A stretch of DNA of 64,000 nucleotides from Ramlibacter cellulosilyticus. GTDB taxonomy: Bacteria; Pseudomonadota; Gammaproteobacteria; Burkholderiales; Burkholderiaceae_C. The notes under the pieces are model-generated. The model did not search any database and was not told where the DNA came from. It saw only the letters and a program-made list of their open reading frames with translations. A program made the translations under genes and the position numbers. Position 1 is the stretch's first letter, and each line of letters opens with the position of its first letter. Positions 1 through 18,870 of this stretch are shown piece after piece. The stretch covers positions 992,001 to 1,056,000 of the forward strand of contig NZ_JACORT010000001.1 in NCBI RefSeq assembly GCF_014297465.1. The letters are read 5' to 3'.

Positions 1-1
1 C

Positions 2-556
2 GCGGAGGTGTTCGAGCCGTTCGCGCCGGGCCGCGGTTCGTCGTCCACCATGCCGCAGAAGCGCAATCCGATCTCCTGCCTCTACATCCATGCGAACGTT
101 TCCGTCGCGCGCCAGCATGCCGCCGCGCTGATGGACGCCATGGTGGCCGACCACGAGCGTTCCACCGGGCCGTGGGAGATCGAATGGGTGGTGCTGCCGG
201 AGATCTTCTGCCTGATGTCCGGAGCGCTGAAGCAGGCGAAGTTCGTCCTGAAGGGGCTCGAAGTGGACGCGGCGCGCATGCGCAGGAACATCGACATCAC
301 GAACGGCCTCGTGATGTCGGAGGCCGTGATGATGGGCCTGGGCCCCTATATCGGCCGCGAGTACGCCCACGACCTCGTGTACGACCTGTGCCGCCAGGCC
401 ATCGCGGAGGACCGGCCCCTGATCGACATCCTGGCGGCGCACCCGGAAATCGCGAAGCACGTCTCGCGGGCCCAGCTGGAGGTGTTCTGCGATCCGGGCA
501 GGAACCTCGGCCAGGCCGGCGTGATGGTCGACCGCGTGCTGGCTGCGCGCGGCTGA
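2..556 (+). CDS. Fumarase/aspartase-superfamily lyase, PcaB-like (5' truncated)
   Basis: This is the C-terminal part of a class-II fumarase/adenylosuccinate lyase-type enzyme; the reading frame enters from before base 2, so the N-terminus lies outside the window. The signature GSSTMPQKRNP, close to the start of what is visible, is the superfamily's substrate-binding loop, with its catalytic serine and the conserved M-x-x-K-x-N. It is followed by the long helical segment and a small C-terminal domain of about 80 residues. In this family the phrase STGPWEIEW downstream of the loop recalls 3-carboxy-cis,cis-muconate cycloisomerases (PcaB) and related lyases more than fumarase. The actual substrate cannot be told from this fragment. 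The stop is TGA at 554-556. Confidence 0.85.
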   Translation, partial: AEVFEPFAPGRGSSSTMPQKRNPISCLYIHANVSVARQHAAALMDAMVADHERSTGPWEIEWVVLPEIFCLMSGALKQAKFVLKGLEVDAARMRRNIDITNGLVMSEAVMMGLGPYIGREYAHDLVYDLCRQAIAEDRPLIDILAAHPEIAKHVSRAQLEVFCDPGRNLGQAGVMVDRVLAARG

Positions 557-569
557 CGCCGCGTCAGCT

Positions 570-989
570 TCAGCGGTACCGTGCGTCGTTCGGCGCGCGG
601 TCGTACTGGTTCGTGACGCCGTCGCCGTCCCGGTCGTAAGACGGCGCCATGGCGTAATTGCCCGAGCCGTACGGGATCAGCTGCCCGTTCTGCGCGATGT
701 ACGCCGGCTGGCGGTTCGCGTCGAGGTAGACGGTCCGGCCCCATTGGTCGCGATAGCTGCCGTATTGATCCAGGGGGAGATGCCGGCCGGCGGCATCCAC
801 CTGGTAGTGGCGGCCGTAGGCGTCCGTGTAGACGTTGACGATCGGCGCGGCGCCCGCCGGACTGGCGTCGTACGGAACGCCGAAGATGCGCGCGATGGTG
901 CTGCCCACGCTGTCGATCACGTCAGCCTGTGCGGCCCCGCCGACCGCGAATGCAGCCACTGCGACTGCGGACAAGATGGATTTTTTCAT
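570..989 (-). CDS. Small secreted protein with Ca-binding-like DxDxDG segment
   Basis: The 139-residue protein begins with a clear Sec signal peptide (MKKS, then an Ala/Val-rich core ending around AQA-D, residue 22). The mature part is rich in Tyr, Gly, Asp and Gln, and near the C-terminus carries DRDGDGVTNQYD. That resembles the calcium-binding D-x-D-x-D-G loop of thrombospondin type-3 or EF-hand-like repeats. It is probably exported to the periplasm or outside. Function is unknown; nothing catalytic is visible. The gene is convergent with the lyase, separated by 13 nt. Confidence 0.7.
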   Translation of the reverse strand: MKKSILSAVAVAAFAVGGAAQADVIDSVGSTIARIFGVPYDASPAGAAPIVNVYTDAYGRHYQVDAAGRHLPLDQYGSYRDQWGRTVYLDANRQPAYIAQNGQLIPYGSGNYAMAPSYDRDGDGVTNQYDRAPNDARYR

Positions 990-1136
990 GTGCTACTCCT
1001 GTGCGGACTTGCCGCATGGAGTCATTGCACCGGGAAGCGGGAGAAGGGAACAGCGGTGCTCCGGCCGAGCAGCTGTGCGCCGAATCGCGCGCGACTGTAG
1101 GCGCAGGCGCCTCATCCGGTGCCGCCATGAGGACGA

Positions 1137-1164
1137 AAAAAAAGACCGGCGCACCGGTCTTTTC
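1137..1164 (-). terminator. Rho-independent terminator of the RRM gene pair
   Basis: A GACCGG-CGCA-CCGGTC stem flanked by AAAA and TTTT forms a perfect 8-10 bp hairpin. On the minus strand it is followed by a run of eight U. It lies about 20 nt past the stop of the downstream RRM gene. The flanking A-run and T-run also make a weak bidirectional function possible. Confidence 0.85.
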
Positions 1165-1182
1165 TCTGCAAGGGGCCAGGCG

Positions 1183-1533
1183 TCAGGAACGTCCGCCGCC
1201 GAAGCCGTCGTTGCCGTAGCCGACGCCCGCGCGATGGCTGGCCTTGAAACCCTGCGCGCCGTATCCGCCGGAACCACGGCCTTCTTCACGCGGACGCGCG
1301 AGGTTCACGGTGATCGAGCGCCCGTCCACGGACCTTCCGTGCAGCCCCTTGATCGCAGCCTGGGCCTCTTCGGCCGACGGCATTTCGACGAAGCCGAACC
1401 CCTTGGAGCGGCCGGTTTCGCGATCCATCACGAGCTTGGCGGAGGAAACCCCGCCGAACTCGGCGAAGTTGCTTTCCAGGATGGAATCGGTGACGGAGTA
1501 GGGCAGGTTGCCCACGTAGATCTTGCTGGTCAT
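1183..1533 (-). CDS. RRM-domain RNA-binding protein (cold-shock type), second copy
   Basis: A single RNA-recognition motif fills residues 2-80: RNP2 is KIYVGNLP at the N-terminus and RNP1 is KGFGFVEM. A Gly/Arg-rich tail (EEGRGSGGYG...GFGGGRS) follows, the architecture of the small bacterial/cyanobacterial Rbp RNA chaperones that bind single-stranded RNA. I start at the ATG at 1533 rather than upstream in the frame because the RRM begins right there and an AAGGA lies about 12 nt before it. It lies 31 nt downstream of another RRM gene on the same strand and ends at a strong terminator, so the two form a probable operon. Confidence 0.9.
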   Translation of the reverse strand: MTSKIYVGNLPYSVTDSILESNFAEFGGVSSAKLVMDRETGRSKGFGFVEMPSAEEAQAAIKGLHGRSVDGRSITVNLARPREEGRGSGGYGAQGFKASHRAGVGYGNDGFGGGRS

Positions 1534-1564
1534 GCGAGAGCCTTTCCTTGATGGGATGCGCGAA

Positions 1565-1849
1565 TCAGTAGCGGTTGCCGCCCGCACGGGGAGCGCGCGG
1601 CTCCATCGGCTTGGCGACGTTCACGACCATGTCGCGGCCGCCCAGGTCCCGGCCATGCAGGGCGGTGATGGCGGCGCTGGCCTCCGCGGCGGTGGCCATC
1701 TCGACGAAGCCGAAGCCCTTGGAGCGGCCGCTGTCGCGGTCCGTGATGACCTTGGCGCTGTTGACGGACCCGAACTCGGCGAAAGCGCGCTGCATGTCGT
1801 CGTCGCTGAAGGTGTAGGGCAGGTTGCCCACGAAGAGTTTGTTTTCCAT
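1565..1849 (-). CDS. RRM-domain RNA-binding protein, first copy
   Basis: A 94-residue protein that is almost only an RRM: RNP2 KLFVGNLP near the start, RNP1 KGFGFVEM in the middle, then a short Pro/Arg-rich tail. The ATG at 1849 is preferred; GAGGA sits about 8 nt before it, and residues read further upstream in the frame do not look like protein. It is a paralogue of the next gene downstream, with the same RNP1 sequence and closely similar flanks, so the pair looks like a tandem duplication. Genes of this type are often cold-induced, which would fit a long 5' leader here, but regulation is inference. Confidence 0.9.
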   Translation of the reverse strand: MENKLFVGNLPYTFSDDDMQRAFAEFGSVNSAKVITDRDSGRSKGFGFVEMATAAEASAAITALHGRDLGGRDMVVNVAKPMEPRAPRAGGNRY

Positions 1850-2267
1850 GAATGTCCTCATGAGGAAGGTGCCGCGCGGCAACATGCCGTGCGGTGCACA
1901 ACGCCAGAGAACATCGACGGGGGATTCAGACAACGACGCGGCGGGTGCAAGTCCGCCGGAGGGAGAAAGTAAACCTTGAAGAGCGACGATCTGTTGAACG
2001 TCCAGCAGCGCGGAGGTTAACACGTTATGCACTTCCGTGCACATGGAGCGCTCATTGGCCGCCTGGCGCGCACGATGTAACGCGAGATGACAGCGTCGCT
2101 GCAGCCTGCACGATTCGCGATAGCTTGTAACGCCGCCGCGGCATGAACGTGTACTTCCGACGGGCGCGCGCTGCGGGTGAAACGCGCGACCTATATTGAT
2201 TTGGAGGAGTCACCACGTACCGGGTCCAGCGAGGCGCCCGTTCAAGCCTCGCACACAGGAGAACGAA
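1850..2267. other. Intergenic region between the divergent RRM pair and the peptide/MNIO locus
   Basis: About 420 nt with no convincing gene. It must hold the divergent promoters. The part next to the RRM gene contains a potential hairpin (around 1873-1896, CCGCGCGGC...GCCGTGCGG) that could be part of a leader. A TATATT at 2192-2197 is a possible -10 element for the peptide gene, but no good -35 box was seen. Confidence 0.4.
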
Positions 2268-2519
2268 ATGCCGGAACTCAATCCCCAGCCGCTGCCTCCG
2301 GGTGATCGCGTGCGCGTGTTCGTCAACCACGACATCGCATTCGACCTCCAGAAGATGAACAAGATCACTGCAAACGTCCTGGGCAAGCTGGGGTGCGGAG
2401 GCTGCCACTCGGGGCGCATCCTGGAGTTCGTGACGCTCCGCGACTTCGTCGTCAATCCCAGGACCCTGGACGTCCAGGAGTTTGCCGGCTCGCCTCTCGC
2501 CAGGAGCGCGCCGGAGTGA
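2268..2519 (+). CDS. Putative RiPP precursor peptide (LNPQPLPP leader, CGGCHSG core-like motif)
   Basis: An 83-residue peptide starting MPELNPQPLPP. I chose the ATG at 2268 because AGGAG lies 8 nt before it and the LNPQPLPP N-terminus reads as a conserved start. Residues 12-40 are polar and leader-like, and residues 42-49 are GCGGCHSG with two cysteines (C43, C46) and a histidine. A hydrophobic stretch ILEFVTLRDFVVNP and a short tail follow. Its stop codon overlaps the GTG start of a DUF692/MNIO gene (GTGA, 2516-2519), which implies translational coupling. MNIO enzymes usually modify Cys, Asp or Asn of a neighbouring precursor, so the Cys pair is the natural candidate site. I recall LNPQPLPP from other short bacterial peptides but cannot verify that here. 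It could alternatively be a small structural or regulatory protein. Confidence 0.6.
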   Translation: MPELNPQPLPPGDRVRVFVNHDIAFDLQKMNKITANVLGKLGCGGCHSGRILEFVTLRDFVVNPRTLDVQEFAGSPLARSAPE

Positions 2520-3916
2520 AGGCGCTCGGCGTCGGGCTGGTCTATTGGTCCGCGCTGGAGCCGCTGTTCCGGGCAGGAGACGCGGGCCTCTCCGTGCTGG
2601 AACTCGAGCCGGAGTCGCTGTGGGAGCAGGTGCGTGAAGCAGAGGCGTGGCGCTATCGCTGCAACGCCGGACTGCTGGATCGCGTGGCGCAACTGCCCCA
2701 GCACAAGCTGCTGCATGGGGTAGGGCACCCCGTCGGCGGAACGGTCCAGGATCCCGTGGATCCGTGGGACCTGCTGCACCATGCGGTCCGGGCGCTCCAA
2801 CCTGCGTGGGTCAGCGAGCACCTGAGCTTCAATCGTGTCGGGCGGGAAGAGGGGATACGGCACGCCGGTTTCCTGTTCCCGCCGGCGCAGACAGCGGCGG
2901 CCGTGCGGGTCGCCGCGAGCAACATCATCGCGTACGCGCGCCGGCTCGGTTGTCCCGCGGCGTTCGAGACCGGAGTGAACTATCTCCGCCCCCGCGCAAG
3001 CGACATGGGCGACGGCGAGTTCTTCGCCGCGGTGGCGCAGGCGTCGGGCGCAGGCATCCTTCTCGACGTGCACAACCTGTGGTGCAACGAGTGCAATGGT
3101 CGGGAATCGGTGGCCGAGGTCGTGGCCACGCTGCCGCTCGACCGCGTCTGGGAGATCCACTTTGCGGGCGGGATGGAGCACTCGGGTTTCCGGCTCGACG
3201 CGCACAGCGGGCGCGTGCCGCCGCAGGTGATCGACATCGCGGCCGCACTCATCCCCAGGCTCCCTCGCCTCGGTGCGCTGGTCTTCGAGATCCTGCCCGA
3301 GCACGTGCCCGCCATCGGGCTGGACGGCGTCATGCGCGAGCTGGCGCGCCTGCAGGAGCTCTGGGCACTGCGTTCCCCCACGAACGTGCAGGTACCGTCG
3401 TCCCCTGCGTGCACTCCGTCGCGGTCGGACTTCGATGAAGTCGCGCGGTGGGAAGGTTCGCTCTTCGATGCCGTGACGGGGAATGCGGACCCGGAGGACC
3501 GTGGGTGCGCCCTGCTGCGTGGTCTCGTGGACGACGCCCGGCGGGGGAGCCTGGCGCGCGCGTTGCGCTATACGACCACATGTCTCCTGGGCGCGCTGGG
3601 GGACCGGGGATTCGGCGAACTTTTCGCTGCGTACTGCCGCACGCATGCGCCGGAACCGTTCGCTTCCGTCGAAGCGGAACGCTTTGCAGGGTTCCTGCGG
3701 ACTCGCATCGACGGGGGCTTGTGCGTCCCCTATCTCGACGAAGTGCTCGCGTTCGAGCACGGCCTGCTGCGGGCCACGCTGCTGGGAGCCTCCTCGGAAG
3801 TCAGGTGGAGCGTGGACCCCACCATGCTGATCGAGTCGCTGGAGGCGGGTACCCTGCCGCGCGGCCTGCCGCAGGTGCGCAGCGTGATGCGCATTGCTCC
3901 GGGCGAGGCCGGTTGA
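2516..3916 (+). CDS. DUF692/MNIO multinuclear non-heme iron oxygenase with C-terminal extra domain
   Basis: 466 residues starting at GTG 2516, 4 nt inside the preceding gene. Residues 1-285 are a DUF692 TIM barrel with the expected metal-site motifs in order: HGVGHPVG (67-74), SEHLSFN (100-106), FETGVNYL (150-157), LLDVHNLWCNE (182-192), EIHFAGG (213-219), DAHSG (228-232) and FEILPEHV (258-265). Studied members (MbnB, TglH, ChrH, ApyH, BufB) bind two or three irons and oxidatively rearrange residues of a ribosomal peptide, usually with a separate partner protein. Here about 170 further residues follow. Their segment FGELFAAYCRTH...YLDEVLAFEHGLLRATL resembles the helical DUF2063-type partner, so partner and enzyme may be fused. 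That last point is inference; the family assignment is firm. Confidence 0.85.
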   Translation: MKALGVGLVYWSALEPLFRAGDAGLSVLELEPESLWEQVREAEAWRYRCNAGLLDRVAQLPQHKLLHGVGHPVGGTVQDPVDPWDLLHHAVRALQPAWVSEHLSFNRVGREEGIRHAGFLFPPAQTAAAVRVAASNIIAYARRLGCPAAFETGVNYLRPRASDMGDGEFFAAVAQASGAGILLDVHNLWCNECNGRESVAEVVATLPLDRVWEIHFAGGMEHSGFRLDAHSGRVPPQVIDIAAALIPRLPRLGALVFEILPEHVPAIGLDGVMRELARLQELWALRSPTNVQVPSSPACTPSRSDFDEVARWEGSLFDAVTGNADPEDRGCALLRGLVDDARRGSLARALRYTTTCLLGALGDRGFGELFAAYCRTHAPEPFASVEAERFAGFLRTRIDGGLCVPYLDEVLAFEHGLLRATLLGASSEVRWSVDPTMLIESLEAGTLPRGLPQVRSVMRIAPGEAG

Positions 3917-3955
3917 AGCTCCGGCCCCGCGAGCACCGCAATCACCACATGCGCC

Positions 3956-4381
3956 TCACCGCCCCTGCGCCGACAGCGGCAACCCGAACACCCGGTCGAA
4001 CGCGAGGTTGAACAGGAAGCCGTACACGAGGAAGAAGACGATCATCACCGCGTTGAGTGCCAGCGCGGCGAGCAGGCTCACGCCCAGCACCCACGCGAAC
4101 AGCGGCACCAGCATGGTCACGAGGCCCACCTCGAAGCCGATGGCGTGCACCACGCGCCGCAGGACGCTGCGCCCCTTGCGTTCCTGGCGTCTTTCCCAGG
4201 CCTCGAAGAGGATGTTGTAGACGTAGTTCCACGCCATCGCGATCGTGGACGAGGCGGCCGCCGTGATGCCGGCGGTGGTCACCGGGCTTTCGGAGAGCCA
4301 CCGCAGCAGCGTGCTGGCCAGCACGATGGCGATCAGCTCGAAGGAAACGACGTAGACGATCTTGCGTTGGAGTCCCTGCAC
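3956..4381 (-). CDS. PACE-family multidrug/biocide efflux transporter
   Basis: 141 residues with four predicted membrane helices arranged as two similar pairs, the bacterial transmembrane pair (BTP) layout of the PACE (proteobacterial antimicrobial compound efflux) family. Diagnostic phrases are visible: RKIVYVVSFELIAI in the first helix, WNYVYNILFEAWERR at the end of the second, RRVVHAIGFEVGL in the third and NLAFDRVFG in the last. The conserved acidic residue of helix 1 (FE) is present. Relatives such as AceI export chlorhexidine or polyamines in exchange for protons. The gene is divergent from the nitronate monooxygenase gene, with their 5' ends less than 80 nt apart. Confidence 0.85.
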   Translation of the reverse strand: MQGLQRKIVYVVSFELIAIVLASTLLRWLSESPVTTAGITAAASSTIAMAWNYVYNILFEAWERRQERKGRSVLRRVVHAIGFEVGLVTMLVPLFAWVLGVSLLAALALNAVMIVFFLVYGFLFNLAFDRVFGLPLSAQGR

Positions 4382-4458
4382 GCATGGATTCTAGAGGTGC
4401 AGGGATGGCCCTCGCCGGAGCAGTCTATGCTTGCGGCATTCCCTTTCCGGATGCCGCC

Positions 4459-5430
4459 ATGCCCGAACTCCAGACCCGGCTGACACGCTCCCTCGGCTTG
4501 CGCCACCCCATCGTCTCGGCGCCGATGGCGTTTGCCGCCGGTGGCGCGCTGGCCGCGGCCGTCACCCGCGCCGGCGGACTGGGGCTGATCGGCGGCGGCT
4601 ACGGCGACGGGCCGTGGATCGAGCAGCAGTTCGCCGCGGCGCAAGGAGAACGCATCGGCATCGGCTTCATCACCTGGTCGCTCGCCACGAAGCCGTCGTT
4701 GCTGACCGCCGCGCTCGCGCACCGGCCGGCGGCCGTGATGCTGTCGTTCGGTGATCCGCGGCCCTTCGTCGACGAGATCCGTGCCGCGGGCGCCAGGCTG
4801 GTCTGCCAGTGCCAGGACATGTCGCACGTGCGCGATGCGATCGCCGCGGGCGCCGACGTGGTCGTGGCGCAGGGCGCGGAGGCGGGTGGCCACGGGGCGC
4901 TGCGCGGCACCTTCAGCTTCGTCCCGGAGGTGGCGGACGAACTCGCCGCGCGCGCCCCCGGCACCTTGCTGCTCGCGGCCGGCGGCGTGGGCGACGGGCG
5001 CAGCCTCGCGGCCGCGCTGATGCTCGGTGCCGATGGCGTGCTGGTCGGCACGCGCCTGTGGGCTTCGCGCGAGGCGCTGGTGGCGCCAGGCCATCACCGC
5101 GCGATCCTCGAGACCGGCGGCGACGGCACGCTGCGCACGCGCATCCCCGACGTCGTGCGCCAGCTGCCCTGGCCGCCGGGCTTCACTGCGCGCATCCGCC
5201 GCAATGCGTTCACGGCGCGCTGGCACGGCCGCGAAGCGGAGCTGGAGAAGGCGGCGGCCGAGGAAGGACCGCGCTACGCGCAGGCCTTCGCCGCGGGCGA
5301 TGCGGAGCAGGGCGCCGTGTGGTTCGGCGAGGCGGCAGGCCTGGTCCATTCGATCGAGCCGGCCGGCGAGATCATCGAGCGGATGGTCGCGGAGGCGGCA
5401 GGCCTCCGGGCACGCGGGCAGGCCGGCTGA
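4459..5430 (+). CDS. Nitronate monooxygenase / 2-nitropropane dioxygenase family protein
   Basis: 323 residues from the ATG at 4459, where the typical family start (T.LT..LGLRHPIVSAPMA) begins; the longer in-frame start would add residues with no family likeness. FMN-binding TIM-barrel features: HPIVSAPMAF at the N-terminus, CQCQDM in the middle, then GAEAGGHGA with the conserved His, and the phosphate-binding AAGGVGDGRSLAAALMLGADGVLVGTRL. These enzymes oxidise alkyl nitronates with FMN and O2. Some homologues have other oxidoreductase roles. It stands alone between oppositely oriented genes. Confidence 0.85.
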   Translation: MPELQTRLTRSLGLRHPIVSAPMAFAAGGALAAAVTRAGGLGLIGGGYGDGPWIEQQFAAAQGERIGIGFITWSLATKPSLLTAALAHRPAAVMLSFGDPRPFVDEIRAAGARLVCQCQDMSHVRDAIAAGADVVVAQGAEAGGHGALRGTFSFVPEVADELAARAPGTLLLAAGGVGDGRSLAAALMLGADGVLVGTRLWASREALVAPGHHRAILETGGDGTLRTRIPDVVRQLPWPPGFTARIRRNAFTARWHGREAELEKAAAEEGPRYAQAFAAGDAEQGAVWFGEAAGLVHSIEPAGEIIERMVAEAAGLRARGQAG

Positions 5431-5451
5431 GCCGGGACCGTTCGACGCAGC

Positions 5452-5862
5452 TCACACCTTGGCGTCGTCTCCGATGATCGGGCCGTCGAACGCGCCGTGC
5501 AGCGTTTCGATGCGCACCGGTGCGCTGCGCCCCGGCAGCTCGACCTGCAATCCGAGAGGGCCTTGCGAGACGCGGACCCGCACGGTGTCGCTGCCGGCCT
5601 CGGGCCGGTAGTCGTACACGCCGGGTTGCCATACCTCGGCCGCCACATGCATGCGGCGCGTGCCGAGCAGGCTGCCGATCTCCTTCTGCAACCTGTTGCG
5701 TTCCACCTGCAGAGCCTGCACGCGCGCGAACAGCGCGTCCACGCCGCGGCGGTCGCCGCCCTGTTTGCTGGCGTCGAAAGCCTGCGTCAGCAGGGCGCCC
5801 TCCTGGTCGACGAGTGCCGAGACCCGGGCGCGCAAGGTGGCGATGCTGTTGTCCTCTCCCAT
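5452..5862 (-). CDS. Conserved-looking hypothetical protein with N-terminal coiled coil
   Basis: 136 residues. The first 65 are strongly helical and heptad-like (TLRARVSALVDQEGALL...VQALQVERNRLQKEIG). The rest is beta-rich, with WQPGVYDYRPEAGSD and a stretch of alternating hydrophobics. There is no signal peptide, membrane segment or known catalytic motif. I do not recognise the family. Third-position GC and length match a real gene rather than a shadow frame. Confidence 0.5.
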   Translation of the reverse strand: MGEDNSIATLRARVSALVDQEGALLTQAFDASKQGGDRRGVDALFARVQALQVERNRLQKEIGSLLGTRRMHVAAEVWQPGVYDYRPEAGSDTVRVRVSQGPLGLQVELPGRSAPVRIETLHGAFDGPIIGDDAKV

Positions 5863-6018
5863 GGGGCCTATTTTTGGGGCGCGTGACCCACTTTACAGAA
5901 GGCGCGGGCGGCGGTGCCCGTCAGTCGTCATCCGACACTGCGTTTTTGCCGCCGCACGGTCGTCACGGGACGATGAGCTTGCAGTTTCGCGTCGGCTTCT
6001 TGCAACGCTGCCTCCCGG

Positions 6019-6597
6019 TCAGCAGCACCCTTCCTCGGGGTAGGCGAGCTCGCCGTCGACGATGCATGCGGGCGACGTGTACGGGTGCGGCGTGCCGGGA
6101 CCCGTGCCGGCAATGTGGATCACCTCCACGTCCAGGAAGCGCAGCACGTCGGAGATGAGCGCACGGTGGCAGCGCCACCAGAGAAGCTCCGAGCACATGA
6201 TCGCGGTGCGCGCGCCCGACGCGACGTGCAGGAGTTCGTCGAGGCCCGACGCGAACTCCTCGGTCCACGTGTACGCCGCATAGGACCGGAACGAGGCATT
6301 GCGCCAACCGGCTTGTTCCGGTCCCGCGGGGACCCGGCGGCGTCCGCCGAGCCCCGCGAGCCACGCGTAGCCCAGGCCGCAGCCCGCGAGCGTTGCGGCG
6401 AGCGCATCGCTGCCGAACTGCGGATGGCGCCGCGAGCCGGGGAACCGTCGCACGTCCGCGACCACCTCGATGCCATGGGCGCGCAGCACGGAGACGAAAT
6501 CATCCGCGCTGCGCGTCGAGTGGCCGATGGTCCAGACCGTGCGTGGGTCAGCGGCCGTCCTTGTCCGAGTCGCCGGGGATCGCGCGCTCGGTTGCAT
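6019..6597 (-). CDS. DUF488 family protein
   Basis: 192 residues with the DUF488 hallmarks: VWTIGHSTRSADDF at the start, DVRRFPGSRRHPQF soon after, and AIMCSELLWWRCHRALI, where the conserved C-x-E...CHR motif of the family sits. The function of DUF488 is not established; the conserved Cys and acidic residues have suggested an enzyme. The only possible start is the ATG at 6597, which makes the gene overlap the preceding glycine-zipper gene by 50 nt on the same strand, so the two are probably cotranscribed. Confidence 0.8.
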   Translation of the reverse strand: MQPSARSPATRTRTAADPRTVWTIGHSTRSADDFVSVLRAHGIEVVADVRRFPGSRRHPQFGSDALAATLAGCGLGYAWLAGLGGRRRVPAGPEQAGWRNASFRSYAAYTWTEEFASGLDELLHVASGARTAIMCSELLWWRCHRALISDVLRFLDVEVIHIAGTGPGTPHPYTSPACIVDGELAYPEEGCC

Positions 6598-7045
6598 TGC
6601 TCACCCGCTCCCACGCGTCGCGCGCTGCCGGGCGGGCATGTTCCCATTCGAGCGACGAGCTGCCGCGGGCACGGCCCCAGTCGCGTCCGAGCTCGGGCTC
6701 CACCTCGTCGAACGAGCGGCCCGGGTTGCGGTTCCACGAATCCACGCCGGCGCGGTAGGCGGGCTGGTACTCGTCGAAGCCGACGTCCTTGCGCGCATAC
6801 GGACGGGTGGCGTGGTTGTCGCGCCAGTACTTGTCTTCGGCGGCCGGGTCCGCGGCCTTCTTGCCCATCACCGCGCCCGCGACGGCACCGACGGCGGCAC
6901 CGATCGCCGCGCCCACGGGGCCCGTCACGCCACCGGCCAGCGCGCCGGCGGTCGCACCACCGACCACGCCACCCGCGGCCGCGCCACCCACGGCGCCTGC
7001 GCCCGCACCGGCTGCCTTCTTGTGCTCGGGATTGTCATTGTTCAT
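6548..7045 (-). CDS. Glycine-zipper domain protein
   Basis: 165 residues. Residues 10-65 are an extended glycine zipper (repeats of GAVGGAAAGG and GAAIGAAVGAVAG) that should form one or two tightly packed membrane hairpins. The C-terminal half is hydrophilic and Arg/Asp/Trp-rich (YWRDNHATRPYARKDVGFDEY, WNRNPGRSF). Glycine-zipper proteins of this kind are usually envelope stress or osmotically inducible proteins of unknown role. The ATG at 7045 has AAAGGAC upstream. An in-frame open stretch reads further upstream but is not protein-like. Confidence 0.75.
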   Translation of the reverse strand: MNNDNPEHKKAAGAGAGAVGGAAAGGVVGGATAGALAGGVTGPVGAAIGAAVGAVAGAVMGKKAADPAAEDKYWRDNHATRPYARKDVGFDEYQPAYRAGVDSWNRNPGRSFDEVEPELGRDWGRARGSSSLEWEHARPAARDAWERVSNATERAIPGDSDKDGR

Positions 7046-7215
7046 GTCGCTGTCCTTTCGTTGCTGGAGCCGCCACCATAGGAGGACATCGGCTGGCCCA
7101 TCCTCGGAAGCAGCCCACATCTGGGCGGGGGCATGGCTGACAAGCGCGTAGTCCGATGGAGACTCAGCGGTGAAACCCGAGGGCCTTGCGCGCGGCCGTG
7201 GCGCAGAATGCGCCG

Positions 7216-7485
7216 ATGATCGAACTGCCCAGGGAGGTCCGCCAGCAGGCGGTTGCCTCCATCGAACGCTACTTCCTCGAGAACATGGAAGAGAAGATCG
7301 GCAACGTGGCGGCCGGCGGCCTCCTGGGCTTCTTCCTGGAGGAGATCGGTCCCGCGATCTACAACCAGGCCGTGCGCGACGTGCAGGAACGCCTGCGCAT
7401 GCGCGTCGAGGAAATCGACCTCGAGGTGCAGGAGGAGGAGTTCGGGTACTGGAAGAAATTCGAGAAGGGCGGCCGGCGGCGCTGA
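7216..7485 (+). CDS. DUF2164 family protein
   Basis: 89 residues from the ATG at 7216. The core matches the DUF2164 pattern: [19 protein letters not shown], then [25 protein letters not shown], followed by a charged helical tail. It is small and probably cytoplasmic; function is unknown. It lies 26 nt upstream of a DUF2200 gene in the same direction, so the two likely share a transcript. Confidence 0.85.
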
Positions 7486-7511
7486 CCGCCTGCGCAACGG
7501 AAGGAGCGACG

Positions 7512-7859
7512 ATGCCGGAACACCGGATCTTCACCACCGCATTCGCCAAGGTCTATCCGCTCTACGTCCAGAAGGCGGAACGCAAGAGCCGGACGAAGGA
7601 AGAAGTCGACCAGGTGATCTGCTGGCTCACCGGCTACGACCGGGCCGGACTGCAGCGGCAGATCGAGCAGGGCAGTGACTTCGCGACCTTCTTTGCGCAG
7701 GCGCCCGCCATGCATCCGAACAGTTCGAAGATCACCGGCGTCGTCTGCGGCGTGCGCGTGGAGGAAGTCGAAGATCCGCTGATGCGAAGGATCCGCCAGC
7801 TGGACAAGCTCGTCGACGAGCTTGCCAAGGGGAAGAAGATGGAGAGCGTCCTGCGCTAG
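7512..7859 (+). CDS. DUF2200 family protein
   Basis: 115 residues beginning [20 protein letters not shown] and continuing with VICWLTGY and [23 protein letters not shown], all strongly characteristic of DUF2200, a short protein family of unknown function found across proteobacteria. AAGGAG lies 6 nt before the ATG at 7512. Its TAG stop sits in a CTAG whose other strand is the stop codon of the convergent PepSY gene. Confidence 0.9.
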
Positions 7860-8104
7860 CGCAGCCGCCCCGTCTCCGCATCGATCACCACCAGGCGGAG
7901 CTCGCCCCCTTTGGTGAGCATCCGCACGCGCCAGACCAGCTTGCTGTCCACGTGGACGCCGTGCTCCACCGCGAGCACGCGGCCGGGCGCCGTGCGCTGG
8001 GCGAGGGAAACCGCTTCGTCGCGGCTCACGTCTGCCCATGCCGCGGGCACCAGGAATCCCAGCGAGAGCAGCAGGGCGGCGATGGTACGCATGAGGTTGG
8101 GCAT
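7856..8104 (-). CDS. PepSY domain secreted protein
   Basis: 82 residues: a signal peptide of about 24 residues ([20 protein letters not shown]...AWA), then one PepSY domain, with [21 protein letters not shown] and the closing [13 protein letters not shown]. PepSY domains are periplasmic and are thought to inhibit proteases or act as sensors. I start at the ATG at 8104, which has AAAGGA 4 nt before it; a second ATG at 8092 is possible. The 3' end overlaps the convergent DUF2200 gene by 4 nt. Confidence 0.8.
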
Positions 8105-8181
8105 GAGGTCCTTTCGAAACACGCATGCAGGATAACGGGGCGTTCGTGAACGGTCGCTGAACGCCCCGGCTGGGGTACGCG

Positions 8182-8874
8182 TCAGCGGCCGGGACCGACT
8201 TCGCCAGAGGTCATCGACAGGGACAGGCTGTACCAGCCCGCGATCGCCCCGGGCGCGGCGCCGAGCGCCTCGAGCGCGCCGGTGCCGAGCACCTCTTCTC
8301 CGAGGGCCTGGAGCACCTCGAGCTCGTAGCCGCACACGATGAAGATCCAGTCCGCGCTGCGGTCGAGGTTGCCGCGGATCTTCTGTTCCGTCGTGGTCGC
8401 GATGGCAGGTGTCTCGGTGCGCAGCAGGTGCGCCCCGCCGAGGCCGGCGCGCAGCGGCAGCTCCGCGACCAGCGATCGCAGGGCGGCCTGCAGGCGCTGC
8501 GCCTCGCCCTCGCGGGGCGAGAGCCTGAGCGTCATCGCATGCCGCGCCACGCCCGCGCCATGCGAATGCAGCACGCGCGTCTGGCTGCGCACCATGTCGC
8601 GGTGGTGCGGCATCAGCCGCGTCGACCACGGCGTGGGTGCGTTCAGGCGCGCCAGGTACTCGGGCGAGCTGAGCGCCGCGTGCTCCCGCAGCTCGTAGAG
8701 GATGAAGAAGCCTTCGCCGCCGTCCGCGGCGGACCACCGCGAGGCGCGGTTGAAGCCGGGCAGGGCCAGCCGCTCCGGAAAGTGTTCGTGCGAATGCCAG
8801 TGCTCGAACTCCGCGCGCATCTCCGGCGCCATGTTCCACCACATCGCGAGTGCGGCCTCGCCCAGGATTGCCAT
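8182..8874 (-). CDS. DUF4286-like dimeric alpha/beta-barrel protein
   Basis: 230 residues with WWNMAPEMRAEFEHWHSHEHFPERL near the start. The W-x(n)-WHxxEHxxERL-x-x-PGF pattern is typical of DUF4286/EthD-like ferredoxin-fold proteins found near catabolic genes. A second similar half may follow (residues 110-230). No catalytic residues are certain beyond the conserved histidines. It lies immediately upstream of, and on the same strand as, the IclR gene's end (19 nt), so it is probably transcribed behind the regulator. Substrate unknown. Confidence 0.55.
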   Translation of the reverse strand: MAILGEAALAMWWNMAPEMRAEFEHWHSHEHFPERLALPGFNRASRWSAADGGEGFFILYELREHAALSSPEYLARLNAPTPWSTRLMPHHRDMVRSQTRVLHSHGAGVARHAMTLRLSPREGEAQRLQAALRSLVAELPLRAGLGGAHLLRTETPAIATTTEQKIRGNLDRSADWIFIVCGYELEVLQALGEEVLGTGALEALGAAPGAIAGWYSLSLSMTSGEVGPGR

Positions 8875-8893
8875 CGTCTTTCTCCTTTTTCGT

Positions 8894-9709
8894 TCAAGCC
8901 ATGCCGGTGGCGCGCGCGCGGAACACCGGCGAGCTGGTCGCCGCGATGGCGAGCTCGCCGGCCGCGTCCACGAGCGGCCGCCCGAGTTCCCGCATCCGCG
9001 CTTCGGTCAGGCGCTGCAAGGGCCCCGCGATGGTGAGCACGCCCACCGCCTCGCGGCCGCGCCGCAGCACCGGCGCCGCCATGGCACTCATGCCCGGTGC
9101 GTACATCTCGCTCATCACGCTGAAGCCGCGGTTGCGGTCCTCCTCCAGCACCTTCATCAACGCCTTGAAGGTCGTCGGCGCCTTCGGCCCGTACTCGCGC
9201 GGCGAGCCGAGGCCCTGGCGTGCGACGAGTTCCGTCGCGCGCTCTTCGCTCAGGGTCATCAGCCAGGCATGGCCGGCGGCACTGCAGGAGAGGCGCACGT
9301 CGATGCCCATGTCGGGGTCGTAGCGCAGGCCCCCGCGCGCGCCCTGCGCCTTGGCGACGAAGGTGAGGCGGTCGCCGTCCACCAGCGCCAGGCGCACCAG
9401 TTCGCCGGAGGCTTCCGCGAGGCGGTCGATGATGGGCTGCGCGATGTCCACGATGCCGGCGCCCGCGAGGAAGCTCAGGCCGAGCGCGGGCAGGCGCATG
9501 GTGAGCGCGTAGTCGCCCATCTCGCGCAGCTGCCGCACGTACCCGCAGCGCGCCAGGTCCGCCAGCAGCCGGTGGCAGGCGCTGCGCGGCAGGTTCACTT
9601 CCTTGGACAGGTCGCCCAGCGACAGGCCCTCGGGCTGCGCGGCCAGGGCCTCCAGGATGCGCAGCGCGCGGTCGACGGTGCCGCTGGGGACCGGTGCCGA
9701 GTTCGTCAT
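8894..9709 (-). CDS. IclR-family transcriptional regulator
   Basis: 271 residues: an N-terminal winged helix-turn-helix (DRALRILEALAAQPEGLSL, LPRSACHRLLADLARCGYV) and a C-terminal GAF-like effector-binding domain (RLSCSAAGHAWL, GFSVMSEMYAPGMSAMAAPV, the family signature region). It is divergent from the TRAP receptor gene with 85 nt between the starts, and a GGAA/TTCC-type palindrome lies there. It most likely controls its own gene, the following DUF4286-like gene and the receptor. The ligand is unknown. The ATG at 9709 was chosen because the helix-turn-helix begins about 12 residues later. Confidence 0.9.
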   Translation of the reverse strand: MTNSAPVPSGTVDRALRILEALAAQPEGLSLGDLSKEVNLPRSACHRLLADLARCGYVRQLREMGDYALTMRLPALGLSFLAGAGIVDIAQPIIDRLAEASGELVRLALVDGDRLTFVAKAQGARGGLRYDPDMGIDVRLSCSAAGHAWLMTLSEERATELVARQGLGSPREYGPKAPTTFKALMKVLEEDRNRGFSVMSEMYAPGMSAMAAPVLRRGREAVGVLTIAGPLQRLTEARMRELGRPLVDAAGELAIAATSSPVFRARATGMA

Positions 9710-9710
9710 G

Positions 9711-9732
9711 TGGAAAGGGATTCCGGAATGGA
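9711..9732. promoter_or_regulatory. Candidate IclR operator
   Basis: The segment TGGAAAGGGATTCCGGAATG contains a perfect ATTCCGGAAT palindrome (9720-9729) and overlapping GGAA/TTCC half-sites, the style of IclR-family boxes. It lies just upstream of the IclR start and about 65 nt before the TRAP receptor start. Function is inferred from position and symmetry. Confidence 0.4.
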
Positions 9733-9794
9733 ACGGTGTTCTGCCCGTGTCCCTATCATGCCCCACTTGCCATGAACATCGACAGGAGACTCCC

Positions 9795-10805
9795 GTGAAC
9801 CCCATGACCCGCCGCGGCTTCGCCGCCCTGGCCTTCGTCGTCGCCGCCTCGGGCGCCGGCGCGCAGGACATCCAGGAACGCACCATCAAGTTCGGCCACC
9901 TGAACAACCCCGGCCACCCGACCAGCCTGGGCGTGCGCAAGTTCGCCGAGATCGTCACGGCGAAGACCGGCGGCAAGTTCAAGGTGCAGGAGTTCGCGTC
10001 CTCGCAGCTGGGCAACGAGCTGCAGCAGCAGGCCGCGCTGCAAGGCGGCGTGCAGGAGATGCTGGTGGCGTCCACCACCTCGCTGAACGGCATCGTGAAG
10101 GAGTTCGGGCTGCTGGACTTCCCCTTCCTGTTCGCCAACGAGCGCCAGGCCGATGCGATGGTCGACGGTCCGCTCGGCAAGGCGCTCGCCGCGAAACTGC
10201 CGGAGAAGGGCGTGGTGGTGCTGGGCTTCTTCGACCTGGGCTTCCGCAACGTCACCAACAGCAAGCGCCCGGTCACCAAGGGCGCCGACCTCGAGGGCCT
10301 GAAGCTGCGCGTGATCCCCAATCCGGTGTTCCTGGAAACCTTCAAGACCTTCAAGGCGAACCCGGTGCCCATGGCCTTCGCCGAGCTGTACGGCGCGCTC
10401 GAAAGCAAGGCCGTCGACGGCCAGGAGAATCCCTTCGCGGTGATCGCGTCGAGCAAGTTCTACGAAGTGCAGAAGTACGTGAGCGGCACGAACCACGTCT
10501 ACGCCACCAATCCCATCCAGATCAGCAAGCGTTTCTGGGACCGCCTCTCGCCGGTGGAACAGAAGATCCTGCAGGACGCCGCGATCGAGGCGCAGAACTG
10601 GCAGCGCACCGTGAGCCGCGAAGTGTCCGCCAAGGCGCTGGGCGAACTGACCGCCAAGGGCATGGTCTACAACGACATCGCCCCCGCCGAACTGGCCCGC
10701 ATGCGCGCCGAGGTGCGGCCGGTCTACGACAAGTTCTCCGCGGCCTACGACCCGGCCATCGTGACCCTGTTCCGGTCCGAGCTGGAGCGCGTCTCCAAGC
10801 TCTGA
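9795..10805 (+). CDS. TRAP transporter solute-binding protein, DctP family
   Basis: 336 residues: a Tat-like or Sec signal peptide (MNPMTRRGFAALAFVVAAS...GAQ), then a DctP domain with FGHLNNPGHPTSLGVRKFAEIV, the ligand-carboxylate Arg region LKLRVIPNPVF and AELYGALESKAVDGQENP. The protein captures an organic acid in the periplasm for TRAP uptake. The start is GTG 9795 with AGGAG 8 nt upstream; ATG 9804 is an alternative. No DctQ or DctM membrane genes are adjacent, so it is an orphan receptor here and must use a transporter encoded elsewhere. Confidence 0.9.
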   Translation: MNPMTRRGFAALAFVVAASGAGAQDIQERTIKFGHLNNPGHPTSLGVRKFAEIVTAKTGGKFKVQEFASSQLGNELQQQAALQGGVQEMLVASTTSLNGIVKEFGLLDFPFLFANERQADAMVDGPLGKALAAKLPEKGVVVLGFFDLGFRNVTNSKRPVTKGADLEGLKLRVIPNPVFLETFKTFKANPVPMAFAELYGALESKAVDGQENPFAVIASSKFYEVQKYVSGTNHVYATNPIQISKRFWDRLSPVEQKILQDAAIEAQNWQRTVSREVSAKALGELTAKGMVYNDIAPAELARMRAEVRPVYDKFSAAYDPAIVTLFRSELERVSKL

Positions 10806-10829
10806 GCAGGCTGTCGGCTAGCATGGCGC

Positions 10830-11600
10830 ATGGGCATCCCGTACGCCAGCGTCGAAGAGGCGATCGCCACCCGCGGCTTGCGGATGGTGGTCGTCGGCAA
10901 GATTCCCAGCCCCTGGTCCGAAGCGGCGAAGGGGCTGTTTCACGTCAAGCGCATCCCGTGGACCGCGGTGCGGCTCGTGTACGACGACCCGGCCCTCAAG
11001 GCGTGGGCGGGCCAGCGAAGCGCGCCGGTGGCGATCTACGAGAACGAGCCGCCGCGCTCCGGCTGGGCCGAGATCCTGGAACTGGCCGAGCGGCTCGCGC
11101 CGGAGCCGCCGCTGATGCCTTCCGACGCGGCGGACCGAGCGACGGCCTTTGCGCTCGCACACGCGATCTGCGGCGAGCAAGGCCTCGGGTGGTCGCGTCG
11201 ACTGCAACTCGTCGAAGCGGGCCTGCGTGGCCGCGGCGGCTTCCCGCCCGAGGTCGCCGCGTACATCGGCAAGAAGTACGGCCATGGCCCCGAAGCCGGA
11301 GCAGCGGCGCCCGCGCGCGTGGCGGAGCTGCTCGCGATGCTTGCTTCGCGCCTGAAGGCGCAGCATGCAGCGGGGAGCCGGTACTACGTGGGGCAGGAGC
11401 TCACGGCGGTCGACATCTACAGCGCCACCTTCCTCGCGTTGCTGCAGCCGCTGCCGCAAGACGTCTGCCCCATGGACGCCACTACCCGTTCTGCGTTCGA
11501 GTTCCGCGACCCGACCACGGACGCGGCGCTGGACGAAGTGCTCCTCGCGCACCGGCAGATGATGTACCGGGAGCACCTGGCGCTGCCGCTGTCTCTCTGA
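10830..11600 (+). CDS. Glutathione S-transferase-like protein
   Basis: 256 residues. The N-terminal thioredoxin-like half contains KIPSPWSEAAKGLFHVKRIPW, SAPVAIYENEPP and GWAEILELAERL. The C-terminal helical half has the GST capping-box-like TAVDIYSATFLA. A typical glutathione-contacting Ser/Cys motif at the N-terminus is not obvious (SPW is the best candidate), so the activity is unproven. It starts 24 nt after the TRAP receptor gene and may be cotranscribed. Confidence 0.7.
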   Translation: MGIPYASVEEAIATRGLRMVVVGKIPSPWSEAAKGLFHVKRIPWTAVRLVYDDPALKAWAGQRSAPVAIYENEPPRSGWAEILELAERLAPEPPLMPSDAADRATAFALAHAICGEQGLGWSRRLQLVEAGLRGRGGFPPEVAAYIGKKYGHGPEAGAAAPARVAELLAMLASRLKAQHAAGSRYYVGQELTAVDIYSATFLALLQPLPQDVCPMDATTRSAFEFRDPTTDAALDEVLLAHRQMMYREHLALPLSL

Positions 11601-11708
11601 GGGCGCCGCTTGGCCTCGCAGCCGGAGCCGGGGCGCAAGCGGACGCAGTAGACTGATCGCCGGACTGCGGGTGGCGACGGTCGCTCGGCCCGAACTGCAG
11701 GGACGCAC

Positions 11709-12422
11709 GTGCTCGAATCGCTCTTGATGTCGGTGACCCGTCTTTCGACGTTCCTGGGAGATCGCGCGCTGACAGCGGGGTCCGGATTCTTCTACGAGAG
11801 CGAATCACGGCTGTACCTCGTGACGAGCCGTCACGTGTTCATCGATGAAGCTGCGCAGCACCTTCCGGATCGGATCGAGTTCGTGGTCCACACGGACGCC
11901 ACGAATCTGACGCGCTGGCAGTCGGTGTCGATGCCGCTCTACGCGGGTGGAAGAGCAGCCTGGCGGCAGGCCAGAGATTCCGGAGGCGAGATCGACGTCG
12001 CCGCCATCGAGGTGAGCAGGTCCTTGCTCCCTTCCGACCTCCAGGTGAGGTGCTTCGGACCGGAGAGTCTCCCAGCCGACCTCGACATCGCCCAGGCGGG
12101 TACGCCGATCCTGCTCGTGGGTTTTCCGCTGGGCTTCTACGACACTGTCCACCACCTGCCGGTGGTTCGCCAGGCCATAGTCGCGTCGTCCTTCGGTGTC
12201 CGGTTCCAGGGACAAGGCTTTTTCCTCACGGACGCCCGCATGCATCGCGGTGCGAGCGGCGCACCAGCCGTGCTGCGGCGTGGGGACGGGGAGTTTCCGT
12301 GGGTGCTTCTTGGCGTGCACTCCTCCCGGCTGGACATGAAGAACCGGGATCTGCTGCAAGACGACTCGTTGGGTCTCAACTGCGCCTGGTACTCGGATGT
12401 GCTGAAGACCCTGGTTCCCTGA
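11709..12422 (+). CDS. Trypsin-like serine protease domain protein
   Basis: 237 residues with a complete chymotrypsin-fold triad: His42 in LVTSRHVF, Asp96 in EIDVAAIEV and Ser183 in MHRGASGAPAV. The N-terminal GSGFFYESESRLYLVTSRHV is typical of the S1 bacterial peptidase_2 group. No signal peptide or membrane anchor is visible, so it would act in the cytoplasm, unlike Deg proteases; no PDZ domain is present. The start is GTG 11709. Stand-alone cytosolic proteases of this type occur in stress or conflict loci, but the neighbours here do not show that. Confidence 0.75.
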   Translation: MLESLLMSVTRLSTFLGDRALTAGSGFFYESESRLYLVTSRHVFIDEAAQHLPDRIEFVVHTDATNLTRWQSVSMPLYAGGRAAWRQARDSGGEIDVAAIEVSRSLLPSDLQVRCFGPESLPADLDIAQAGTPILLVGFPLGFYDTVHHLPVVRQAIVASSFGVRFQGQGFFLTDARMHRGASGAPAVLRRGDGEFPWVLLGVHSSRLDMKNRDLLQDDSLGLNCAWYSDVLKTLVP

Positions 12423-12472
12423 GGAGCGCCAAGCAGGAGGCGAGCGGACATCTGGTCAAAAGTCCCCCCACT

Positions 12473-13438
12473 TCAGGTCGCCGACGCCAACGCCAGCGTC
12501 TGCGCCGGTTCGCGTGGCAACGCCGTCTGTTCCACCAGCTCTGCCTGCCTCGCGAACAGATCCACGGTCCACTCCACGAAGGCACGCACGCGCGCGCTCA
12601 GGTGGCGGTTGGGGGGATAGACCACGTGCATCGGGATCAGCGGATGCTGCCAGTCCGGCAGGATCTCCACCAGCGCGCCGGTGCCCAGGTACGGCAAGGC
12701 CTGGAAGCGCGCGACCTGGGCAATCCCGAGGCCCGCCAGAGTCGCGGCGAGGTAGGCGTTCCCTTCGTTGACGGACAGCTTGTGGCGCCCCGCGATCTCG
12801 ATGCGCTCGCCGTCGCGCTCGAACACGTTGGGGAACATGCGGCCCGTGCGCGGCGAGAAGAAGTTGATCACCGTGTGCTTGTCTTCCAGCTCCAGCGGGT
12901 GCCGGGGCGTGCCGTGCTGTGCCAGGTACGCCGGGGTCGCCACGCTCACCAGCGGCATGTTGGCGATGCGCCTGGCCACCAATGACTGCTCGGTGAGTTC
13001 GCCGCCGCGGATCACGCAATCGACGTTGTCGCTGATCAGGTCGACCGGCCGGTCGCCCACGCCCAGGTCCAGCTGGATGTCGGGGTAGCGGCGGTAGAAA
13101 TCCGGCAGCGACGGAATGATGATGTCGGACGCGATCGAGGAGCCGACGTCCACGCGCAAGCGCCCGCCCGGCTTGCCCTGCGCGAGCGTCATCGCCGCTT
13201 CCATCTCGTCGAGGTCGTTCAGCAGCCGCGACGCCCGTTCGTAATAGGCGGCGCCGTCGGGCGTGACCGTCACGCGACGGGTGGTGCGATTCAGCAGCTT
13301 CACCTTCAGCCGCGTCTCCAGCTGTTGCAGCAGCTTGGTCGCGGAGCCCTTGGGCATGTCCAGGGACTCGGCTGCCCTCGTGAAGCTGCCGGTCTCGACC
13401 ACCCTCGCAAACACCCGCATCGACTGGATCTGGTCCAT
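12473..13438 (-). CDS. LysR-family transcriptional regulator, probable regulator of the RND operon
   Basis: 321 residues from the ATG at 13438, where the LysR helix-turn-helix begins (MDQIQSMRVFARVVETGSFTRAAESL...GSATKLLQQLETRLKVKLLNRTTR). The effector domain follows, with the IVDCVIRGGEL-type strand (NVDCVIRGGEL) and a typical AGLGIAQV turn. It is transcribed away from the pseudo-hydrolase/RND operon with only 77 nt between starts, the classic arrangement for a LysR activator of an efflux operon. The inducing compound is unknown. An upstream in-frame ATG adds 12 residues without RBS support. Confidence 0.9.
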   Translation of the reverse strand: MDQIQSMRVFARVVETGSFTRAAESLDMPKGSATKLLQQLETRLKVKLLNRTTRRVTVTPDGAAYYERASRLLNDLDEMEAAMTLAQGKPGGRLRVDVGSSIASDIIIPSLPDFYRRYPDIQLDLGVGDRPVDLISDNVDCVIRGGELTEQSLVARRIANMPLVSVATPAYLAQHGTPRHPLELEDKHTVINFFSPRTGRMFPNVFERDGERIEIAGRHKLSVNEGNAYLAATLAGLGIAQVARFQALPYLGTGALVEILPDWQHPLIPMHVVYPPNRHLSARVRAFVEWTVDLFARQAELVEQTALPREPAQTLALASAT

Positions 13439-13515
13439 GTCCTTCTTCTCCTTGTGGGTGGCGGCATTGTTCACGCGGTGGAAACAGAGAACTGGCCGCC
13501 CCCCGGTTTATCCGT

Positions 13516-14361: not shown

Positions 14362-14442
14362 CGCTTCGCGCCCACCCCGTTTCGCATTTCGCATCCCGGC
14401 CGCTGGACCGGGCTGGACCAACGCACCCTGGAGAAAAGAAAC

Positions 14443-15621: not shown

Positions 15622-15623
15622 AC

Positions 15624-18869: not shown

Positions 18870-18870
18870 C

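Follow-up and report, generated by a model that had tools for sequence, protein, structure and literature searches.

A small protein with an internal [C/H/M]xxC-x-SG loop and a fused-partner MNIO: a putative two-gene maturation cassette in Ramlibacter cellulosilyticus

The window, a 64,000-nucleotide stretch of the Ramlibacter cellulosilyticus genome, carries two overlapping genes on its + strand. The first (2268..2519, stop included) is an open reading frame for a small protein of 83 amino acids, a putative MNIO substrate with homologues beside the enzyme at other loci, which begins MPELNPQPLPP and later reads GCGGCHSG. A Shine-Dalgarno-like AGGAG can be read at 2257..2261 (+), 6 bases before its ATG. 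The LNPQPLPP segment is encoded at 2277..2300 (+) and the CGGCHSG loop, residues 43-49 and the presumed modification site, at 2394..2414 (+). The second gene (2516..3916, +) starts with GTG and shares four bases, GTGA, with the end of the first. Its open reading frame, Pfam match (PF05114) and structural model identify a 466-residue MNIO with a fused partner domain: the catalytic TIM barrel, placed by alignment and by motif match to TglH, occupies about residues 1-283 (2516..3364, +), and the DUF2063-like domain, placed by the model and by profile comparison, about residues 303-466 (3422..3913, +). Convergent with the MNIO gene across a gap of 39 bases is a BTP-family efflux gene (3956-4381, - strand; Pfam PF05232 'Chlorhexidine efflux transporter', E 3.5e-43), which is not conserved beside the pair elsewhere. 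On the other side, two tandem genes for single-RRM RNA-binding proteins (1183-1587 and 1565-2044, both - strand) diverge from the peptide gene. No RNA family reached its gathering score in window positions 1-20000, no sigma-70-like promoter was found in 1850-4450, and terminator-like sites in the latter interval numbered 1 against 1.2 expected.

The enzyme matched PF05114 over residues 65-255 (E 9.9e-35; 120.5 bits against a cut-off of 25), and with none of the NCBIfam MNIO equivalogs that it matched did it reach the required score. Its best NCBIfam score, 102.6 bits, was to BufB (NF050167) and missed the cut-off of 310; ApyH (66.1 of 400 bits), HvfB (63.9 of 360) and ChrH (NF050165; 38.9 of 600) followed. 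The model of the methanobactin enzyme MbnB (TIGR04159) scored 18.3 of 325 bits. Among 28 relatives, the BufB, ApyH, HvfB and ChrH models matched all 28 and MbnB five, and the best E-values ranked the models in the order BufB, ApyH, HvfB, ChrH, MbnB. The earlier note on this DNA had seen the metal-site motifs of an MNIO, and this observation stands: nine candidate iron ligands (H67, H102, E151, D184, N187, H215, D228, H230 and E258) are identical in 28 of 28 relatives. We paired these nine with TglH by motif and by sequence alignments rather than by superposing the sites. According to the available text on TglH, its iron ligands are His71, His107, Glu151, Asp184, His216 and Glu258, and a third iron is held by Asp184, Asn187, Asp229 and His231 (PMC10880893). 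The AF2 model of the enzyme is confident (pLDDT 94.3), and the nearest solved structure is TglH itself (8hi7_B; Z 28.2, rmsd 2.8 over 274 residues, 24% identity).

The earlier note made no mention of the fused domain. In the AF2 model, the stretch 303-466 is a separate domain of helices that has a terminal beta pair. DUF2063 gave a weak match in 8 of 27 family members (best E 2.5e-4); the window's own fused domain matched nothing in Pfam, DUF2063 included, and its five matches to PDB sequences at E up to 10 were not meaningful and did not include TglI or NGO1945. The fold search used the whole enzyme, and its matches were filled by the barrel. Profile comparison linked the domain to a separate gene that follows the MNIO of genome G401, at 99.0% probability over 122 columns. 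In that genome (locus L017, 1270-2972), a 67-residue peptide with CRPCLSG precedes an MNIO and a separate DUF2063-like partner, which looks like an unfused version of the cassette, the peptide being related by motif and place only. From the available text of Antoine et al. (2025; PMC12452194), DUF2063 and DUF2063-like partners are encoded mostly after the MNIO gene, and one partner class, PME-type 2, is defined by absence of the DUF2063 signature. We conclude from the profiles that the barrel is fused to a DUF2063-like partner domain, which makes up the last ~165 residues of the enzyme.

A scan of 84,980 genomes built on the enzyme alignment (A3) yielded 36 loci (L058-L093), 3 of them from genomes also met in our smaller samples; because it used two short exact protein patterns, the scan favours near relatives and is no census. 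A clearly homologous peptide lay directly upstream of the enzyme in 34 of the 36 loci, 33 recognized by script and one, L088, by eye. Since the search began from the enzyme, this pairing is not a product of the query. At L090 (cyanobacterial bin, 5228-6487), an odd peptide frame ending near CPACSSG precedes a frame-broken related MNIO, and at L093 the enzyme is 27% identical and has no upstream peptide. A possible start codon of the enzyme fell between -20 and +40 bases from the peptide stop in 34 of 35 cases, and a four-base overlap was possible in 12 of 35; for these counts the script chose the start nearest such an overlap. The peptide is more than a chance reading frame, because homologues stand directly upstream in 34 of 36 loci and because it evolves under constraint (below), and both genes are confirmed as real.

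No convincing orphan peptide appeared in 398 genomes searched with a first profile, in 299 searched with a wider one or in 60 of the window's genus, samples that overlap and a search type that can miss diverged forms. The coupling of peptide to MNIO proposed in the earlier note, and the fixed co-occurrence that it named as a check, thus hold up well. A search with the peptide alone across 249 genomes of the phylum recovered no copy but that of the window. Twelve genomes with peptide matches at E 0.005-0.084 were set aside; these matches lay inside open frames of 235-709 amino acids. Also rejected were matches antisense to a long efflux-like frame (G565), within an EAL-like protein (G581) and, by eye, in frames without resemblance (G460, G602 and G539). 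On plasmids, tblastn with the window peptide (E up to 1) and with the Lysobacter peptide (E up to 0.01) gave no match, a 26-residue query gave five weak ones (E 2-6), and the enzyme matched 312 records, none spanning more than 80% of its length. Among viral contigs, 64 pattern stretches contained no relative.

The 36 loci belong to Pseudomonadota, Actinomycetota and acidobacterial, myxobacterial, cyanobacterial and archaeal (Candidatus Nitrosothermus koennekii) bins. The locus in the archaeal bin (L081, 5702-7413) consists of a peptide gene and a fused MNIO; its contig is 293,597 bases long, has 31% GC and may be a contaminant. Nearer to the window, 117 of 250 genomes of the order held some MNIO at E 1e-5 or better, and two of the 250, from one genus, held full-length enzymes 45% identical to the window's, both preceded by a CxxCHSG peptide that lacks LNPQPLPP; the peptide occurred in 4 of 9 genomes of the taxonomic family to which these belong. 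The cassette was present in 1 of 60 genomes of the window's genus. In a tree of the 36 enzymes, whose forks deeper than the starred sets lack resolution, the window enzyme falls into one starred set of 7 with those of Rhodanobacter, beta-proteobacteria and Rhodococcus. This mixed set, together with the single positive genome among 60 of the genus, suggests that the cassette has spread horizontally.

Comparing all frames against all across 35 loci and the window, we found the peptide to be the most widely shared neighbour (29 loci). The next was a loose cluster from nine loci, in scattered places, of what seem to be GGDEF/EAL-type signalling proteins; a beta-lactamase-fold cluster came from six loci, three of them Massilia (the L067 copy is Pfam PF00144), and further sharing reflected synteny among Massilia. 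We also scanned 108 of the 113 listed flanking frames, from 28 of the 36 loci with near-duplicates excluded, against Pfam, and none of the families occurred in more than two frames. Neither a protease nor an exporter is conserved beside the 36 loci. The earlier note had stated that neither a transporter nor a protease gene adjoins the pair; across loci this is true of conserved genes, but in the window the BTP efflux gene is 39 bases away. At one locus, L058 from a Burkholderiales bin, a bufferin-like cluster (2698-4578, - strand) is divergent from the cassette and comprises a precursor, an MNIO and partner- and DoxX-like frames, named by eye; this is a single case.

The peptide itself is poorly represented in databases: it had no match in Pfam at E up to 10 or in PHROGs at E up to 1, and its one NCBIfam match (E 0.1) lay far under that model's cut-off. 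What the family shares as its core is a loop, [C/H/M]xxC-x-SG, which is internal and sits on a domain of ~60 residues. In an alignment of 30 peptides, from which L071, L083, L085, L086 and L088 were excluded, G42, C46, S48 and G49 are invariant; L38, L41, C43 and F60 are nearly so, as is a proline at position 20, where the window has Asn. The N-terminus is the least conserved part. Counting extended to 37 domain copies, from 33 loci and the window, with a pattern that demands C, H or M at residue 43 and C or W at residue 46 and is blind to other losses. Residue 43 was C in 33 copies and H in 4, residue 46 was C in 36 and W in 1, residue 47 was C in 15, H in 11, T in 8 and S, F and A in 1 each, and residues 48-49 were SG in 36 and TG in 1. 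The L088 peptide falls outside the pattern and by eye reads M43, C46 and then CSD; counting it, 37 of 38 copies have Cys46, and 5 of the 38 carry His or Met in place of Cys43. The two-Cys segment that the earlier note favoured remains the likely target.

Three loci, from Marivita and Rhodosalinus, carry two domain copies per peptide (L083, 5551-5970; L085, 5541-5975; L086, 5550-5969), and in two of the three, His replaces the first Cys of the second copy. The remaining His43 copies are those of L079 and L092. In the enzyme tree, L085 and L086 lie in a starred clade with L083, and L079 and L092 sit on unresolved forks; given this distribution, the exchange of Cys43 for His probably happened at least twice. 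Cys46 is lost once, to Trp, in L071 (Massilia frigida, 636-893).

We estimated dN/dS for close pairs. Among pairs without L071, the peptide gave 0.12-0.45 in 10 of 11, the eleventh being L072/L077 at 0.63, a pair with little divergence. Six Massilia pairs of this kind gave 0.25-0.45, and the five close pairs outside Massilia, L072/L077 excepted, gave 0.12-0.32. Judged by these ratios, the peptide is under purifying selection. In four pairs that include L071, the peptide rose to 0.60-0.91 and the enzyme was at 0.17-0.21. Because constraint on the peptide is relaxed there while the enzyme stays constrained, we infer that the peptide of L071 is in decay and not a functional variant. The earlier note had counted loss of the cysteines beside an MNIO against its reading; such loss does occur, in five copies at residue 43 and in one at residue 46, that of this relaxed lineage.

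LNPQPLPP fared worse. The earlier note named the peptide by this segment and made its strong conservation a check; we rejected it both as hallmark and as leader. Only 4 of 35 peptides have it, it also turns up in unrelated frames, and it is best regarded as an optional segment without value as a family signature. A DNA pattern for it, which also permits Phe at both Leu positions, hit 7 of 229 genomes, one of them that of the window, where a reversed control hit 0, and was also present on 15 viral contigs. The CxxC domain was absent from all 21 other contexts read among these LNPQPLPP-like loci (L112-L118 and L119-L133). Three genomes of one genus (L113-L115) carry an LNPQPLPP-like motif in one common protein.

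AF2 modelled the window peptide with low to middling confidence (mean pLDDT 70.3, pTM 0.48) and predicted a small beta-alpha-beta domain. The residues flanking the loop, in a predicted strand and helix, are conserved as in a folded domain. Foldseek returned nothing for this model at E 0.001 or better (best 0.26), and a likeness to tautomerases (best VIA Z 4.3) was too weak for use. N-terminal hydropathy was 0.57 in the window peptide versus 1.72-2.08 in three bufferin-type precursors; other family peptides reached 1.64, near the lowest of these controls. The window peptide thus appears to have no Sec-like N-terminus, as judged by inspection and the hydropathy scan in place of a predictor.

How might such a cassette work? 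We lean, by a modest degree, toward a self-contained two-gene maturation cassette in which the fused-partner MNIO oxidatively remodels Cys46 of the small protein. The first gene would supply a small protein that lacks a Sec-like N-terminus and whose ~60-residue domain presents the loop [C/H/M]43-x-x-C46-x-S48-G49. The second would supply a multi-iron, oxygen-dependent MNIO whose C-terminal, DUF2063-like domain, usually a separate protein, is fused to it; this domain may dock the small protein while the barrel remodels Cys46. The modified small protein would then stay in the cell, perhaps as a soft-metal site. Against this reading stands that modification of the peptide is only predicted here, from genes and models. 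Observed are the linkage of the pair, a conserved loop, the iron-binding residues, the fused domain and flanks that hold no conserved gene. That the small protein is the MNIO substrate is very likely, that Cys46 is the reacting residue is likely, and we believe that the product stays inside as a modified protein somewhat more readily than that it leaves. His47, which the earlier note had listed among possible targets, is an unlikely one because it is not conserved (11 of 37 domain copies). The soft-metal role is a guess, prompted by residue 43, which where it is not Cys is His or Met, both metal ligands.

The same genes could belong to an ordinary secreted RiPP, with the N-terminal part, LNPQPLPP included, as leader and the modified remainder cut off and exported by unlinked proteins. 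Most described RiPPs are indeed cut and exported, and in the window a BTP efflux gene adjoins the pair. However, the absence of a conserved protease or exporter from all 36 loci, the weak conservation of the N-terminus, with LNPQPLPP in so few peptides, and the fold-like conservation around the loop make this reading improbable. Perhaps the small protein instead assists the MNIO, as a subunit or by donating metal, and the true substrate of the enzyme is encoded elsewhere? The small protein does look folded and is tightly linked to the enzyme, a CxxC can serve metal or redox roles, and no product is known for the cassette. Yet the partner role is already taken by the fused domain, two domain copies in one peptide are more natural for a substrate, and the precursor-MNIO order and conserved Cys motif match precursors described in the available text of PMC12452194; we consider a helper quite unlikely. 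A third possibility, that CxxCH is a haem-attachment site and the small protein a c-type cytochrome, has in its favour the CxxCH of the window peptide. It is already disfavoured by the orthologues and hardly credible: His follows the second Cys in fewer than a third of copies, with Cys, Thr, Ser, Phe or Ala in the others, His can also stand in place of the first Cys, and the window peptide appears to lack a Sec-like N-terminus.

More serious, if still on the unlikely side, is a distant chryseobasin-type pathway that performs the ChrH/DybH reaction, yielding a Cys43-Cys46 thioether and a hydantoin. C-x-x-C-x-x-G is common to both substrates, with CPAC read in 7 of 35 family peptides, and both enzymes have a fused C-terminal helical domain; moreover, according to the available text of PMC12636315, DybH works without a separate partner and also takes the motif when GFP carries it. 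Against it, the ChrH model scores lower with our enzyme than BufB, ApyH or HvfB, none of 35 peptides has Gly directly after the second Cys, so that CPxCGxG is absent, the site is internal, and the ChrH helical domain is put at ~7.8 kDa in the same source versus ~165 residues in the cassette. The 5 copies of 38 that have His or Met instead of Cys43 also do not fit a compulsory Cys-Cys thioether.

Returning to the maturation cassette, we see three options for its chemistry and give them roughly equal weight. The CxxCxxG pattern suggests a ChrH/DybH-like course, which would join residue 43 to Cys46 by a thioether and form a hydantoin that involves residues 47-48. Alternatively, the product could be a 5-thiooxazole like those of the bufferin-type enzymes, to which the cassette enzyme has its highest profile scores, but the absence of Lys directly before Cys from all 35 peptides is unlike the Lys-Cys contexts of thiooxazole precursors. 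The third option is a reaction not yet seen. The most far-reaching reading, to our minds doubtful but worth stating, is that this MNIO cassette builds a cofactor or metal site inside a folded intracellular protein, not an exported natural product, by a reaction on [C/H/M]xxC-x-SG without precedent among characterised MNIOs, and that several bacterial phyla and a thaumarchaeon share it. With two overlapping genes and with enzyme and partner in one chain, it would be among the smallest conceivable MNIO pathways, and its substrate is small enough for whole-protein mass spectrometry. The cassette opens two questions to experiment: do MNIOs also act in the maturation of intracellular proteins, and does a CxxCxxG in common with ChrH substrates mean common chemistry? 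The fusion, the folded-looking internal target and the archaeal bin deserve specialist attention.

The earlier note had called the locus undescribed, which was too strong. Antoine et al. (2025; PMC12452194) list adjamnio-7, putative precursors that lack a signal peptide, contain CxxC and lie next to cluster 7 MNIOs, with WP_078758616 from Novilysobacter spongiicola as representative. That species is the same taxon as Lysobacter spongiicola DSM 21749, the source of our locus L069. Its genome has two MNIOs, one after an EGKCG precursor with a Sec-like start and one after the cassette peptide; the former being of another kind, we assign the window family to adjamnio-7 by elimination, with the accession unmatched. 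The likeness extends to the window peptide, which appears by inspection and hydropathy to lack a Sec signal, has CxxC and is encoded before the MNIO. In its main text, as available, that paper gives the name, motif and model of adjamnio-7 only, and mentions no fused partner domain, His/Met forms, SG core or archaeal bin. Our literature searches found 'adjamnio' in no other paper, LNPQPLPP in none and no characterised member of the family; as far as they reach, the family is named in print and its chemistry and role are unreported.

Among characterised systems, TglH, an enzyme of 3-thiaglutamate biosynthesis, offers the nearest solved barrel and matching iron-binding residues. In the available account (PMC10880893), however, TglI is a separate protein and the target is a Cys added to the peptide end by TglB, whereas the partner domain of the cassette is fused and its Cys is encoded and internal. 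Pearlins (TglH) are marked by a TglB-like peptide aminoacyl ligase in the cluster and a C-terminal Cys target; at the loci examined here no neighbour of the cassette is conserved. The bufferin-type systems (BufB, HvfB, FonB) share the precursor-to-MNIO order and a DUF2063-type partner (PMC12452194, PMC13097082, as available), and BufB is the best NCBIfam score of the window enzyme. They differ in that the precursor bears a Sec signal and Lys-Cys contexts and the partner is a full-length protein of its own, and their enzyme product is a 5-thiooxazole (PMC13097082). ChrH and DybH are, like the cassette enzyme, MNIOs with a fused C-terminal helical domain, acting on a two-Cys CPxCGxG in a small peptide or a larger protein (PMC10214503, PMC12636315, as available). 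In the ChrH subfamily, the sulfur of the first Cys bonds to the beta carbon of the second, whose carbonyl enters a heterocycle with the next two amides (PMC10214503); DybH is active without a partner, accepts GFP-CPACGMG and is reported to cause a mass change of -4 Da (PMC12636315). The cassette differs in its internal CxxC-x-SG, in its larger fused domain and in a ChrH score far below cut-off. Even so, and contrary to the earlier note, which held the motif to be unlike those of known MNIO substrates, the cassette motif resembles the CPxCGxG of ChrH/DybH substrates more closely than it does the bufferins.
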